Shown here piece by piece: positions 19,852 to 25,004 of a stretch of DNA of 25,193 nucleotides (positions within the stretch are counted from its first letter, which is position 1; each line of letters begins with the position of its first letter). Source of the stretch: Nitrospirota bacterium (lineage in GTDB: Bacteria > Nitrospinota_A > UBA7883 > JACRGQ01); the NCBI GenBank assembly GCA_024275955.1, contig JAJRYD010000015.1:1-25193 (forward strand), read 5' to 3'. A model generated the notes under the pieces. The model was not told where the DNA came from and ran no database searches. It saw nothing but the letters and a program-made list of their open reading frames with translations. Position numbers and translations under genes: made by a program.

Positions 19852-20026
19852 TTCGACTCCCCTCGCCAATCCAGAATATTTTCTGCGTATTCACAACGTC
19901 AGGCCAGAAGAACAACCTGAATGTGAAGGGAGCCTGCATCTGGCAGGTGACCGAACATGAAGGGCAGTTCGACGAAGCCTGACTAAGTGAATAGACGCAG
20001 AAATGGTGGAGGCGAGGGGAGTCGAA
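19852..20026. repeat. Inverted partial copy of the tmRNA 3' end
   Basis: The plus-strand segment from 19852 starts with TTCGACTCCCCTCGCC, identical over 16 nt to the tmRNA 3' region on the minus strand (20011-20026). Farther out the two arms still share TTCTGCG, ATTCAC and GTCAGGC in the same order (to 19904 and back to 19977). The arms are about 50 bp long and 72 bp apart, so a transcript reading through would form a long imperfect hairpin. It may be a remnant of recombination at the tmRNA gene. Confidence 0.6.
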
Positions 20027-20362
20027 CCCCTGTCCGAAAAAGGTCATCCGGTGGGACTACATGCTTAGTCTTTCATTAAATTCTCGCGGACATCGTGCCG
20101 AAAGACAGGTCGTCTCATCCGCCAGCAACAAAAGTTTCGCTTACCGCACCGTTGCCAAACGGCAAGCTATCCCGGATTTGTATAACATCCTAACGAGACG
20201 CCCCGAGAAGGCTTCACGCAGGACGAAGCCGTCTTAAATTAAGCGGCTAAAGCGTAATCGTAATTGTCGCCAATTATGATTGGTTCCACTTTTTTACGTG
20301 GTGTGGACCCTCGGCATGCCCCGAGCCAGAATCGTCAATCCCGTCGAAACCGTTACGCCCCC
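20004..20362 (-). ncRNA. ssrA: tmRNA (transfer-messenger RNA)
   Basis: 359 nt. The 5' end GGGGGCG (at 20362) pairs with CGCCTCC near the 3' end (one G-U), followed by the discriminator A and an encoded CCA (20004-20006). The T-arm is AGGGG-TTCGACT-CCCCT. The tag frame (stop TAA at 20239-20241, resume codon GGC at 20269-20271) encodes GDNYDYALAA, with the ALAA ending recognised by proteases. tmRNA rescues stalled ribosomes with SmpB, whose gene is not in the window. The 3' end of ssrA is a well-known integration site for mobile DNA. The leader toward the DUF302 gene is AT-rich and probably holds divergent promoters. Confidence 0.95.
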
Positions 20363-20438: not shown

Positions 20439-20834
20439 ATGGAAACAACAAAATTCGGCATAAGACGAAAAGTAGATATGACACCGGATGAAGCAGAAAC
20501 CAAAGTACGGGCGACCCTTATGGAACAGGGGTTCGGGATACTGACAGAAATAAATGTGCAGGCTATCATGAAAGAAAAAATGGATTTAGAGATAAAACCG
20601 TACAAAATCCTCGGCGCGTGCAACCCGGGCTACGCCAGCAAAGTTATCGAATCCGAGCCGGAGGTAGGGCTTTTGATGCCGTGCAACGTAATAGTCTATA
20701 CCGATAAAAATGGCGACACAATAGTATCGATGATGGACCCTGTCTCTGTAATGGGGATGGTAGATAACGCAGATGTGGCGGCTGTCGCTAACGAAGTAAA
20801 GGTAAAGCTGACTGCCGCACTGGAAGCAGTTTAG
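20439..20834 (+). CDS. DUF302-family protein
   Basis: 131 residues with a strong AGGAGGAGG site seven bases before the ATG. The DUF302 fold is recognisable through DEAETKVRATLMEQGFGILTE, then ILGACNPGYASKVIESEPEV, GLLMPCNVIVYTD and the closing MMDPVSVMGMVDN. No signal peptide or membrane helix is seen, so it is probably cytoplasmic. The family is widespread, often near redox or oxidase genes, with no established reaction; the conserved cysteines (C in LGACNPG and MPCNV) could bind metal or act in redox. It is transcribed divergently from tmRNA with a 76-bp gap and ends at a candidate hairpin terminator at 20967. Confidence 0.9.
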   Translation: METTKFGIRRKVDMTPDEAETKVRATLMEQGFGILTEINVQAIMKEKMDLEIKPYKILGACNPGYASKVIESEPEVGLLMPCNVIVYTDKNGDTIVSMMDPVSVMGMVDNADVAAVANEVKVKLTAALEAV

Positions 20835-21027: not shown

Positions 21028-21869
21028 TCATTCACTTATCAAAGGCGTTGCCCTTTCGCCGAGGTTGTACTTGCTACATTTTGCTTGAAGATTTTCTTTG
21101 ATTGTCTCACCGCCACGAGATTAAGGAATAATGTGGTCAACATGCAATTCAACGCATGGTGAATTTATTGGACTTTTTCCAGATGACCTACACCTAAACC
21201 CATCTCTAAGGGGACTGTTTCCAAAAGAGTTTTTTTGAGCATTTTAAGGGGAAGTTCATTTTCTAACTTTTTAAAAATAGAGTCTTTAGAGATTGGTAAT
21301 TTATAAAAAAATCAAATTTATCTCATTCGGCAACAGCCCCCTAAGAAGAATCGAAAAGCGCAACCTATTAGATACTTCTCTTTTTGTTCTCTTTGTAGCA
21401 GTTACGTTTTCCTTCCAACTGAAAGATGCCGCTTTTGGGGAGCTACGCACCTCTTGCTCATCCCCACTGCTATCCTCATTCGTATATTTTACGAATTTTT
21501 TTAAGGTTTTTCGCCAAGAACCAAGTCTCTTAATCGTAGGTTCCAGCGGAATACCTTGACAGGGGCTTTTTGAACTCCACATATTTCGGTTACCTCCCCA
21601 AGGTAATCCACACATCCTTTATATTGTTAAACAATTCTTCATCAGGGATATTCAGTTTGGAACGGCTTTCTCGGAGACCTGCTTTTTTCAACACATCAAA
21701 CCAAGATCTAAAGCGCCTCTGGAGGGTAGATGGATGATATTTTCCAAACTTTTCATAATCAGCTATCGTAACCGTCTTTCTTACGGTTTTCTTGGCAACG
21801 TTTTTTTACATCCTCGATAAGGTTTTCATCCGGGGTGTTGCGATGGTATTGATCAATTTCAAACTTCAT
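21028..21869 (-). pseudogene. Decayed HNH endonuclease with homing-endonuclease-associated repeats, split by a MITE
   Basis: Reading from an ATG at 21869 (MKFEIDQYHRNTPDENLIED), frameshifts and stops break the frame, but the pieces align in order with the intact gene at 19066-19734. A first repeat ends in YHPSTLQRRFRSWFDVLKKA. A second contains EELFNNIKDVWITLGR (then a stop), PKYVEFKKPLSRYSAGTYD and RLGSWRKTLKK. After RLRFSILL comes a 130-bp MITE with duplicated CTTAG. Past it the frame resumes exactly with RDGFRC, then VELHVDHIIP, a stop, SRGGETIKENLQAKCSKYN and a terminal TGA at 21028. So at least three lesions besides the insertion. It was probably a homing-type nuclease that has lost function. 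It is not a recent copy of the intact gene: similarity is at family level. Confidence 0.85.
21211..21340 (+). mobile_element. MITE family 1, copy 7 (variant A), inserted in the HNH pseudogene
   Basis: 130 bp from GGGACTGTTTCCAAAAGAG to CTCATTCGGCAACAGCCCC, flanked by a perfect 5-bp direct repeat CTAAG (21206-21210 and 21341-21345). Removing the element plus one CTAAG restores the endonuclease frame, so both boundaries are defined to the base. Confidence 0.93.
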
Positions 21870-21928: not shown

Positions 21929-22327
21929 CTACTCCCTAAACATCTTTAATGTAGTACAAGCTTCAATGCTGTCAAAATCGCTGTCCTTATGTAAAAGGGT
22001 AAGTCCGTTCTCAATAGATATCGCGGCGATGATGCAGTCGACGGTCTTTCTTACGGTCTTGCCCTTTTTCCTGCAAGCCCTGTAAATCTCGGTCGCTTTC
22101 AGGTAGGTCGCAATCCCTTTTGGTTTGTAAATAGGGAATTCCAGAAGGCACTCTTTCACTCTCTTGAAATCCTTATCTTCCTTTATCCCCTGAAGGATTT
22201 CCGTGAAGATTATCTCTGTAATGGAGATATCCTCTTCATCATTGATGAGCCTATGCAGGGCATGGCGCTCACGGGAGTTCGTACCCCGCAGGAAGTCGAC
22301 CCATACGCTGGTGTCGACAAGGATCAT
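21929..22327 (-). CDS. vapC: VapC toxin, PIN-domain ribonuclease
   Basis: 132 residues. PIN-domain acidic residues are in place: D5 in MILVDTSVWVDFLRG, E43 in IFTEILQG, D97 in VDCIIAA, and the D115/D117 pair in LLHKDSDFDSI. VapC toxins are Mg-dependent ribonucleases that cut tRNA or rRNA and are held inactive by VapB. The start overlaps the antitoxin stop by 4 bp (ATGA), so the two are translationally coupled. It appears complete and unmutated, unlike the pseudogene just downstream. Its RNA target cannot be read from sequence. Confidence 0.93.
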   Translation of the reverse strand: MILVDTSVWVDFLRGTNSRERHALHRLINDEEDISITEIIFTEILQGIKEDKDFKRVKECLLEFPIYKPKGIATYLKATEIYRACRKKGKTVRKTVDCIIAAISIENGLTLLHKDSDFDSIEACTTLKMFRE

Positions 22328-22524
22328 ACTCTGCTCTTCCTCATATCACCAAGTTTGCCTGTCCATTTCACCTTACCCTCGATATCAAGGAGCTTCTTGC
22401 GCTTTATTTTGCTTACGAGTTCCTTAAGGGCGTAATTTACAAGCTCTTTTTTTGTCTTCTTGCGCGTTAGCTTCATCCCCTCTTTCACCAGCTTTTCGTC
22501 AAGCTCAATATTTGTCCTTAACAT
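22324..22524 (-). CDS. vapB: VapB-type antitoxin
   Basis: 66 residues from the ATG at 22524, with GGAGG nine bases upstream; earlier in-frame starts would overlap the ribosome binding site. The N-terminal MLRTNIELDEKLVKEGMKLT is the DNA-binding ribbon-helix-helix part typical of the VapB_antitoxin family, and KKTKKELVNYALKELVSKIK continues it. The C-terminal tail (DIEGKVKWTGKLGDMRKSRV) would wrap the toxin's active site. The first gene of the pair, it is probably autorepressed through the inverted repeat at 22546-22577. Confidence 0.92.
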   Translation of the reverse strand: MLRTNIELDEKLVKEGMKLTRKKTKKELVNYALKELVSKIKRKKLLDIEGKVKWTGKLGDMRKSRV

Positions 22525-22693: not shown

Positions 22694-23821
22694 TTAGAGG
22701 CGGGTGATTTTCCCCAGTACTACGGCACGTTTCGCGCCGGTTACTAAGGGGATGTTGCCCGGCTCGCCTTTTAGGGTGCGGTTTGCGAGTATCGCCATCA
22801 ACACCGCTTCCACCGCTTTTTTATCTATGCCAAGCTTGGAGGAAGATACGACACTACCCCTCTCTCCCAATGCGTTTTGTATCCCAAGCACCACCGCAGT
22901 ATTATATGCTCCGCCGCCGGATATAATCCATCTGACCGGCGGTACAATATCCAAAAACCGGAACGCCTGACCAACCGATGAAAAGGCGGTGAAGGCGGCA
23001 ACGGTACGCAGAAAGTCTGGTTCACTTAATCTTTTAAACTTGGCGTAAAGCTCATCGAAATAGTCAACGCCAAAAACCTCCAGCCCTGTCGATTTCGGCG
23101 GTTTTTTATTGAGAAACGGATGCGAAAGGCAGTAGGTAAGCATGCTTTTATTTACCTCGCCTTTGAGCGAAAGTTTTCCGCCTTTGTCGTAGCTTTTCAC
23201 TCCGTCAGTAAATTTGCGTACAGCGATATCAAGGAGGGAATTGGCAGGCCCTGTATCAAACCCTGTAACATCTTTCAGCTTTCCGCCTTTTTTTAGGAAT
23301 GTGATGTTGCTGATACCGCCGAGGTTGTGGACTATCCGAGCTTCACTGCCGCTCGAAAAAAGGTCGTAATGGGCAATCGGAGCGAGAGGCGCGCCCTGAC
23401 CGCCGACAGCGATATCGGCAGGCCTAAAATCTGACACTACTGTGCAACCTGTTAGCGCCGCTATCTCTGCCGGTTCGCCTATCTGAAGTGTCGAGCGGTT
23501 TTTGCCTGTCGGATGATGCCTAATTGTCTGACCATGCGAACCTATGAAGCTGATTTTGGATATAGATACCCTTCTCTTGCTACAGATCTCCACTGCCGTC
23601 TTGCCGAAAAGCTTCCCAATCTTTACATTCAATTCACAAATCAGTTCGGACCTACCGTCAGGCCCAGAGGCCGAAACAACCTCCTCCATAAGTTTTTTGG
23701 GAAAGGGAGTAAAACGGTGAGCTAAAAGCTCCGTCCCATTTTTGGAAAACCGAACCAGCGCGGCATCTATACCATCGCACGATGTGCCGGACATAAGCCC
23801 TATTCCAAGTTTTTCAGCCAT
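22694..23821 (-). CDS. anmK: Anhydro-N-acetylmuramic acid kinase
   Basis: 375 residues from the ATG at 23821 (MAEKLGIGLMSGTSCDGIDA), the usual AnmK start and length. AnmK opens and phosphorylates 1,6-anhydro-MurNAc released from peptidoglycan, giving MurNAc-6-phosphate for recycling. Landmarks are the nucleotide-binding MSGTSCDGIDAAL, SHGQTIRHHP, STLQIGEPAEIA, VSDFRPADIAVGGQGAPLAP, FDTGPANSLLD and the late ISGGGAYN. The ribosome binding site before this ATG is weak, and the frame stays open upstream through a hydrophobic stretch (VLGRLLLAIAVGVV), but a signal peptide would make no sense for this cytoplasmic enzyme. No other recycling genes are adjacent. It appears monocistronic. Confidence 0.93.
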   Translation of the reverse strand: MAEKLGIGLMSGTSCDGIDAALVRFSKNGTELLAHRFTPFPKKLMEEVVSASGPDGRSELICELNVKIGKLFGKTAVEICSKRRVSISKISFIGSHGQTIRHHPTGKNRSTLQIGEPAEIAALTGCTVVSDFRPADIAVGGQGAPLAPIAHYDLFSSGSEARIVHNLGGISNITFLKKGGKLKDVTGFDTGPANSLLDIAVRKFTDGVKSYDKGGKLSLKGEVNKSMLTYCLSHPFLNKKPPKSTGLEVFGVDYFDELYAKFKRLSEPDFLRTVAAFTAFSSVGQAFRFLDIVPPVRWIISGGGAYNTAVVLGIQNALGERGSVVSSSKLGIDKKAVEAVLMAILANRTLKGEPGNIPLVTGAKRAVVLGKITRL

Positions 23822-24116
23822 AGGCAAACAACTTACCACACCAACCGCTATAGCCAACAGCAATCGGCCCAACACTGACAAAAACAGGATAAAGGAAAAA
23901 GTATATAAGAAACAACCTGTTAACCTTACAACCTACCAACATGGAAAATACCTCAACTGCGGTATTTTTGTATAAAAGCTATTATTCAAATAAATCCAGA
24001 TTTTACTGATAGTAACGGCATTCAGCTAAATGATGCGGTATTTCAGTTACAGCCAAAAGAGATAAGGTTGGTATACTTAAACCTCTATCTATATGAAATA
24101 TAAGGATGTTTCATTA
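23822..24116. other. Intergenic region upstream of anmK
   Basis: About 295 bp without a gene. It holds a 7-bp stem AAATACC...GGTATTT near 23946-23967 with loop TCAACTGC, followed by Ts on both strands; this could be a weak bidirectional terminator. The rest is AT-rich and may carry the anmK promoter, which I could not place. Confidence 0.35.
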
Positions 24117-24132
24117 TGGCATGCTAGTTGCA
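24117..24132 (+). promoter_or_regulatory. Sigma-54 type (-24/-12) promoter
   Basis: TGGCATGCTAGTTGCA matches the RpoN consensus TGGCAYG-N4-TTGCW completely, with the invariant GG and GC exactly 10 bp apart. Transcription would start about 12 bp after the GC, near 24142-24144. No protein-coding gene follows before a strong terminator at 24200. No enhancer site was identified. Confidence 0.7.
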
Positions 24133-24141
24133 TTTACAAAG

Positions 24142-24232
24142 GTCGAGGCGGCGCAATGTCGCTTCAAATTAGATCACCCTCTAACCTCCCCTTAGAGATG
24201 GGAGGGAGCCACCCCAGCTCCCTCCCTTTTTT
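24142..24232 (+). ncRNA. Candidate sigma-54-dependent small RNA with C-rich loops
   Basis: Between the promoter at 24117 and the terminator ending at 24232 lies a ~90-nt region without a plausible coding frame. Predicted structure: an 8-bp hairpin GAGGCGGC (24145-24152) with GTCGCTTC (24158-24165); then TTAGA (24169-24173), TCTAA (24180-24184) and TTAGA (24192-24196), where the middle element can pair with either neighbour, exposing the loop TCACCC or CCTCCCC; then the terminator. ACCTCC in the second loop is the complement of the Shine-Dalgarno core GGAGGU. sRNAs with such loops in other bacteria bind ribosome binding sites. The call rests on sequence layout only; I recognise no known family. 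Confidence 0.55.
24200..24232 (+). terminator. Strong intrinsic terminator of the small RNA
   Basis: GGGAGGGAGC (24200-24209) and GCTCCCTCCC (24217-24226) form a perfect 10-bp stem with loop CACCCCA, followed by six Ts. It is the best intrinsic terminator in the window and reads on the plus strand, with no protein gene before it. Confidence 0.9.
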
Positions 24233-24292
24233 ATTTCAACGAGTTATCAAGTTTTGATAACGTGCAATCTCTTTAGCGGTATGCGGTATTAT

Positions 24293-24422
24293 GGGGCTGT
24301 TGCCGAATGAGATAAATTTGATTTTTCTACAAATCGCCAATCTCTAAAGGCTCTATTTTAAAGAAGTTAGAAAATTAACTTCTCCTTAAAATGCTCAAAA
24401 AAACTCTTTTGGAAACAGTCCC
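24293..24422 (-). mobile_element. MITE family 1, copy 8 (variant A)
   Basis: 130 bp from GGGGCTGTTGCCGAATGAG to CTCTTTTGGAAACAGTCCC. Flanks ATTAT and ATTGT are a likely 5-bp target duplication with one change. It is nearly identical to copy 3. Confidence 0.87.
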
Positions 24423-24555
24423 ATTGTATGTCGAAATATTGTCTACCTTTTGACTAGGCTTCAATTATTAAATATACAAAACTTTTGGGAAAGATAACGC
24501 CATATAGCCTTTAGAGATGGAAGGCGCAGATAAAAGCAGTCTGGCAGGGCTATTT

Positions 24556-24970
24556 AGTCGTCCCTGAAAAAGTTGTTTCATACCGCGAACAAAGGTTAAT
24601 ATCGGTTTTTAACTCTTTGGAAATCGCAAGAAAAATGAAAAAGTAATGAAAAGATGGTTATTTAACTCAAGGGAACCTCTAAAAATCTATTTTTGAAGTT
24701 CTGGCTTTTGGTTGGTCGAATTATAGATGGGGATTTAGTGCTATTGTCGAAACCGATGAAGAAAATCACTTATTTTTAGAGGAACCCTCAAGGTTATTTG
24801 CAAAAACCTCCTGCCTTAGCGAAGCGGAAGGAGGGGTCGCCCGAAGGGCGGTGGTGGTTCTTAGTCGGTAAGCCTTCCGGCGTTCGACAGGCTTGCGCCA
24901 CCTTCCCTTCTTAAAAAGGGAAAGGTTTTTATAATCGTTTAAGCAATAAGCAACTTTTTCAGGTTCGACT
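24556..24970 (+). mobile_element. 294-bp element (family 2), copy interrupted by a 115-bp insertion
   Basis: The ends AGTCGTCCCTGAAAAAGTTG and (inverted) AGTCGAACCTGAAAAAGTTG agree at 18 of 20 positions, better than in copy 1. Flanks ATTT and ATGT are a probable 4-bp target duplication. Total length is 415 bp; removing the nested 115 bp plus one 6-bp duplication leaves 294 bp, exactly the length of the copy at 11237. Confidence 0.85.
24672..24786 (+). mobile_element. 115-bp nested element (family 3)
   Basis: The ends GGAACCTCTAAAAAT and (inverted) GGTTCCTCTAAAAAT match at 13 of 15 positions. A perfect 6-bp direct repeat CTCAAG flanks it (24666-24671 and 24787-24792), and the intact copy at 11237 carries the unduplicated site (CTCAAGGTTATTTGC). 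It is non-coding. It is the only copy in the window. Confidence 0.8.
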
Positions 24971-25004
24971 ATGTAAATCGGAACAGGTTCTAATTTCAAA
25001 AAGT

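Follow-up and report, generated by a model that had tools for sequence, protein, structure and literature searches.

A putative sigma-54-dependent small RNA with an invariant C-rich core predicted to pair with G-rich ribosome-binding sites

The window analysed here is a single contig of 25,193 bases from a 2.45-Mb genome assembled in 56 contigs. The small RNA (sRNA) predicted near one end of the window (Table 1) would have its own transcription unit, because it is flanked by anmK (22694-23821) and by a gene at the contig end, both on the minus strand, with no gene in the stretch between them. The closest plus-strand gene upstream ends at 20834 and is separated from the locus by three minus-strand genes, which rules out that the terminator belongs to a longer transcript entering from upstream, a possibility raised in an initial annotation of this DNA. 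Several other features of the surroundings are worth recording. Just 3′ of the sRNA, a non-coding repeat of ~137 bp (24286-24425) has another copy on the minus strand at 21208-21344 and is dispersed through the genome in the order of at least 100 copies (206 BLAST pieces with 24233-25000 as the query). Also on the minus strand are a VapC toxin-family gene (21929-22524), with a short overlapping upstream gene where an antitoxin would sit, and a tmRNA (20004-20362) with the tag peptide GDNYDYALAA. The 16S gene of this genome is interrupted by a contig end.

Table 1. Predicted features of the sRNA locus (positions in the window)
Feature	Start	End	Strand	Remarks
Candidate enhancer-binding-protein site TGCGGTATTTCAGTTACAG (palindrome)	24034	24052	+	83 nt 5′ of the −24 box; family-conserved
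Sigma-54 −24/−12 promoter TGGCATGCTAGTTGCA	24117	24132	+	GG, A and TTGC invariant in 11/11 homologues
Predicted sRNA, ~90 nt	24143	24232	+	start 24141-24143, inferred from promoter spacing
5′ hairpin	24145	24165	+	sequence differs between genera
Hairpin 1, TTAGA-TCACCC-TCTAA, alternative to hairpin 2	24169	24184	+	not formable in G002
Invariant core CCCTCTAACCTCCCCTTA	24177	24194	+	identical in 11/11 genomes
Hairpin 2, TCTAA-CCTCCCC-TTAGA, favoured in this genome	24180	24196	+	not formable in G008
Putative seed TAACCTCCCCTTA inside the core	24182	24194	+	
Intrinsic terminator	24200	24232	+	10-bp stem, 7-nt C-rich loop CACCCCA (stem-loop 24200-24226), then TTTTTT

The promoter, hairpins and terminator that the initial annotation had described are all present where it placed them, including the perfect 10-bp stem with its six Ts and the two overlapping hairpins that share a TCTAA arm; the 5′ hairpin and the upstream palindrome are two further elements. 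The promoter had been called a complete match to the −24/−12 consensus, which holds for the form TGGCAYG-N4-TTGCW (0 mismatches), whereas the strict TGGCACG form is missed by one position (T for C). Even with one mismatch allowed, this is the sole match to TGGCAYG-N4-TTGCW in the window, for which the chance expectation is 0.44. The predicted transcript folds much more stably than shuffled sequences (z −5.3; 0 of 200 shuffles as good). An Rfam search with the whole window, and with 24030-24250 at a permissive threshold, brought no family near its cut-off, in agreement with the earlier impression that the RNA has no link to a named family.

A gene at this locus is supported by its conservation. 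By BLAST with the sRNA stretch, all ten other genomes of the family proved to have a copy, and the 11 family genomes, which represent seven genera, carry one copy apiece. Across them the core CCCUCUAACCUCCCCUUA is without any change while its flanks diverge, the sigma-54 box lies 43-58 nt 5′ of the core in every member, and the terminator stem has acquired compensatory substitutions. The initial annotation had named in advance, as evidence against an sRNA gene, a promoter conserved apart from its terminator or the reverse; both are retained together with the core in 11 of 11 genomes. A covariance search, which it had also proposed, indicates that the RNA is specific to the family, with scores of 64-117 bits in members and at most 32 bits in the 374 other genomes among the 385 searched. 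Neither pattern nor covariance searches found it in the 13 other genomes of the phylum, and the exact core had no match in viral contigs. No neighbouring gene is conserved beside the sRNA across the family: rlmN lies upstream in some genera, anmK adjoins it in this genome, and the neighbourhoods differ between genera. Thus, the RNA is retained in its own right, not as part of the leader or trailer of any single gene. We regard 24117-24232 as a predicted stand-alone sRNA gene composed of a sigma-54-type promoter, a 5′ hairpin, a C-rich core and an intrinsic terminator, and a conserved sRNA gene at 24143-24232 as almost certain.

Two readings that deny a functional RNA were weighed against this evidence. 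The initial annotation had stated that the locus has no coding frame, which in the strict sense is not so for this genome, where a 33-codon frame opening with ATG runs through the core. That this frame is a short translated gene is nevertheless very improbable: start codons and frames are not common to the homologues, indels shift the frame 5′ of the core, and the frame includes the terminator stem. We rejected the short-ORF reading on account of the differing starts and frames. Less probable still is a functionless chance assemblage of promoter-like and terminator-like sequence. A sigma-54-like match by itself is not unusual, as the expected 0.44 per window with one mismatch indicates, but the joint conservation of all parts in 11 genomes of seven genera already refutes this explanation.

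How the promoter might be controlled is suggested by a family upstream element, TGCGGTAA-N5-TTACAG. Using a matrix trained with the genus under test left out, and significance assessed against shuffles, we recovered it at the expected place (p < 0.05) in 9 of the 11 members; it is weak in G010 and G006. It lies at −83 in this window, at −92 to −95 in five genomes and at −103 to −105 in genus g6, spacings that differ by steps of ~10.5 bp, or about one helical turn. Because it is conserved in the family and moves in helical-turn steps, we read this element, which looks like a sigma-54 activator site, as a candidate binding site for such a protein. Seven activator proteins of the GAFTGA type are encoded in this genome. 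The initial annotation had suggested control linked to nitrogen, the envelope or motility, and no finding here hints at any of these as the signal for the predicted activator. The sigma-54 DNA-binding domain is present in the ten other family genomes, but neither rpoN nor this domain was found in the 56-contig assembly of this genome. This absence is probably an assembly gap, since the activators are present and the flagellar genes of this genome carry −24/−12 promoters of the sigma-54 type. Overall, sigma-54 control of the sRNA is highly probable.

Our results do not support the proposal that the two overlapping hairpins form a switch presenting one or the other C-rich loop. The hairpins do compete: four genera favour hairpin 1, and three, this genus included, favour hairpin 2. 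CCUCCCC occupies the loop where hairpin 2 is favoured and becomes a linker 5′ of the terminator where hairpin 1 is favoured. However, G002 lacks hairpin 1 and G008 lacks hairpin 2, and the predicted unpaired probability of CCUCCCC is 0.76-0.99 in 10 of 11 members (0.38, mostly paired, in G007). Because each hairpin is lost in one species while the exposure persists in 10 of 11, what is conserved would be the exposed sequence and not a switch, and we rejected the switch as a conserved feature. The related claim that the RNA exposes a stretch resembling an anti-Shine-Dalgarno (anti-SD) sequence is supported by the same predictions. Upstream in the RNA, GATCACC (24172-24178) is identical to a stretch of the bacterial 16S 3′ tail that adjoins its anti-SD; mimicry of this longer tail is not strict, since the position reads GATAACC in G002.

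Target prediction against ribosome-binding sites, as the initial annotation had proposed, was carried out on this genome, pieced together to 2.43 of its 2.45 Mb and with genes called by a simple finder. With a pairing cut-off below −8 kcal/mol, the seed UAACCUCCCCUUA pairs with 468 of 1775 windows just 5′ of start codons compared with 133 windows further upstream. Twenty shuffled seeds reached a mean of 247 and a maximum of 422 pre-start windows, and the true 16S anti-SD reached 472. With 468 windows against 472, the sRNA matches ribosome-binding sites as well as the ribosome's own anti-SD does, and it favours GGGG. At start regions, the whole core gave duplex energies no better than those of shuffled cores. 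On balance, we think that the sRNA probably pairs with ribosome-binding sites.

The best-scoring sites point to a narrower possibility. Nine of the 46 genes with a CXXCH motif (cytochrome type) fall among the 60 best seed sites, where 1.35 would be expected (hypergeometric p 4e-6), although this enrichment comes from a single genome, was noticed as a pattern ahead of the test and is partly common to other C-rich seeds (5-7 of 60). Among 60 shuffled seeds the mean was 2.9 and the maximum 7, and the 16S anti-SD gave 0. Independently of any action of the sRNA, GGGG occurs within 20 nt 5′ of the start in 16 of 46 CXXCH genes compared with 185 of 2006 others. Profile searches identified, among the genes with top sites, ccoN, ccoO, ccoP, cd1 nitrite reductase and a [NiFe] hydrogenase large subunit, as well as NuoL, NuoN and glutamate synthase. 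The regions of the relatives that we examined contain just one CXXCH gene. The idea of respiratory targets is tentative, and we would put it at clearly below even odds.

Features of the same kind occur elsewhere in this genome. On contig C12, a tandem pair (39320+ and 39549+) near an enhancer-binding-protein gene combines sigma-54-like promoters with orphan hairpins whose loops read TTCCCCAC and CTCCCC. An intergenic sigma-54-like promoter on C5 (41017+) is likewise accompanied by an orphan hairpin and has a similar upstream site at −81, and further such promoters followed by orphan hairpins lie on C4 (18200+) and C29 (101229+); the TGCGGTA-type upstream element is found at both the C5 and C29 candidates. 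Among intergenic hairpins, a sigma-54-type promoter precedes 3 of the 17 whose loops are C-rich (the C12 pair and the present sRNA), compared with 0 of 12 with G-rich loops and 3 of 323 others. The C5 and C12 candidates have no homologues in the family by sequence, so the other candidates remain leads.

These observations suggest the following mechanism. An enhancer-binding protein at the upstream palindrome would activate sigma-54 RNA polymerase at the sRNA promoter, and the resulting RNA would expose UAACCUCCCCUUA, either in the hairpin 2 loop or in a linker 3′ of hairpin 1. The exposed sequence could then pair with ribosome-binding sites of the GGGGAGG type and block ribosome entry without Hfq, which a profile search did not detect in any of the 11 family genomes (the same model was positive in 5 of 14 control genomes). 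The mRNAs preferred as targets may be those with G-rich ribosome-binding sites, perhaps enriched in respiratory cytochromes such as ccoO and ccoP beside ccoN, cd1 nitrite reductase and cytochromes c, in which case the RNA would lower the output of proteins that are iron-rich or serve electron transport. As the best explanation of the whole, we favour a gene for a trans-acting regulatory RNA of ~90 nt under sigma-54 control that pairs with G-rich ribosome-binding sites, at a probability of about two in three (roughly 0.68). The fullest version, in which a signal through sigma-54 and its enhancer protein produces an Hfq-free anti-SD mimic that lowers respiratory and iron-rich proteins with ribosome-binding sites that are unusually G-rich in this genome, as the conserved member of a set of sigma-54 sRNAs with C-rich loops, strikes us as rather unlikely.

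Two alternatives share the sigma-54-driven or C-rich sRNA and differ in its partner. The more serious is that the sRNA has one or few specific, non-respiratory mRNA targets and that its C-rich seed is simply the usual means of access to a ribosome-binding site. An invariant stretch of 18 nt suggests a long, specific duplex, and the best scores in this genome belong to frr, the best single site, which is perfectly complementary over 12 nt at its ribosome-binding site, and to a chemotaxis receptor gene. With an 11-nt seed, however, frr is not conserved as a target in the relatives, and it was rejected as a conserved target; the enrichment of cytochrome-type genes among the top sites also speaks against a few non-respiratory targets. 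We place this alternative somewhat short of an even chance. It is improbable, by comparison, that the C-rich core binds a protein as a sponge or scaffold (cf. CsrB, CrcZ) instead of mRNAs. In favour of such a role are the 18 invariant nt of the core, set against predicted mRNA sites that lack conservation, the presence of genes for RRM-type RNA-binding proteins in this genome, and the failure to detect Hfq. Yet the exposed stretch outperforms all 20 shuffled seeds at ribosome-binding sites, which a protein motif need not do, the repeated motif expected of a sponge is missing, and GGA of the CsrA type is confined to the variable terminator stem.

Regulatory RNAs of uncultured bacterial groups are barely known, and the locus described here offers a clean family-wide case: sequence is enough to recognise a candidate activator site, a promoter, an invariant seed and a terminator, in bacteria in which Hfq went undetected. 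If cytochrome targeting is true, it would link sigma-54 control with how the respiratory chain is composed, via the composition of ribosome-binding sites, and would offer a testable explanation of why cytochrome genes have G-rich ribosome-binding sites.

The Qrr RNAs of Vibrio have stand-alone genes, each with a sigma-54 promoter, activator sites upstream of it and a short core that does not vary; they act with Hfq under LuxO and are multicopy relatives. The sRNA described here resembles them in its stand-alone gene, sigma-54 promoter, candidate upstream site and short invariant core but differs in having one clear copy per genome, no detected Hfq and no Rfam match. In Xanthomonas, sX13 acts through exposed C-rich stretches, repressing mRNAs that have G-rich motifs close to their start codon, and Hfq is dispensable (PMC3771888). 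Our sRNA shares with it the exposed C-rich stretch, the G-rich motifs by the start codon (predicted here) and the apparent independence from Hfq; sX13, from plant-pathogenic gammaproteobacteria, has three C-rich loops and no sequence relation to it, and the parts of that report available to us mention no sigma-54 promoter (PMC3771888), whereas one is present here. IsrR (Staphylococcus) and FsrA (Bacillus) use single-stranded C-rich regions to pair with Shine-Dalgarno sequences, and nitrite reductase, glutamate synthase and further iron enzymes are among the targets of IsrR (PMC9410917). These are the kinds of target predicted for our sRNA, although IsrR is an iron-starvation RNA under Fur and the promoter here is of the sigma-54 type. 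In Campylobacter jejuni, CJnc230 (FlmE) is an RpoN-dependent sRNA of ~98 nt that brings a single-stranded anti-SD motif to ribosome-binding sites (PMC11187230), but its motif is CCUU and it is mainly processed from flgE mRNA, whereas our sRNA has an autonomous promoter and no flagellar neighbour. The rhizobial alpha-r14/NfeR1 RNAs keep an ultraconserved, unpaired anti-SD motif of the CCUCC type among variable stems, with CCUCCUCCC in each of three hairpins and a promoter without a sigma-54 signature (PMC10746234); our sRNA likewise keeps an unpaired motif of this kind while its stems vary, but it has CCUCCCC and UCACCC once each, besides the C-rich loop of the terminator, and so lacks that three-hairpin layout. 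Although our sRNA has no sequence match to sX13, IsrR, FsrA, alpha-r14/NfeR1 or CJnc230, its exposed C-rich stretch complementary to ribosome-binding sites places it with sX13, IsrR and FsrA in functional kind. It is likely a trans-acting translational repressor, filed in neither the sX13/IsrR nor the Qrr family: a new family that would work like sX13 and IsrR under a Qrr-like promoter.
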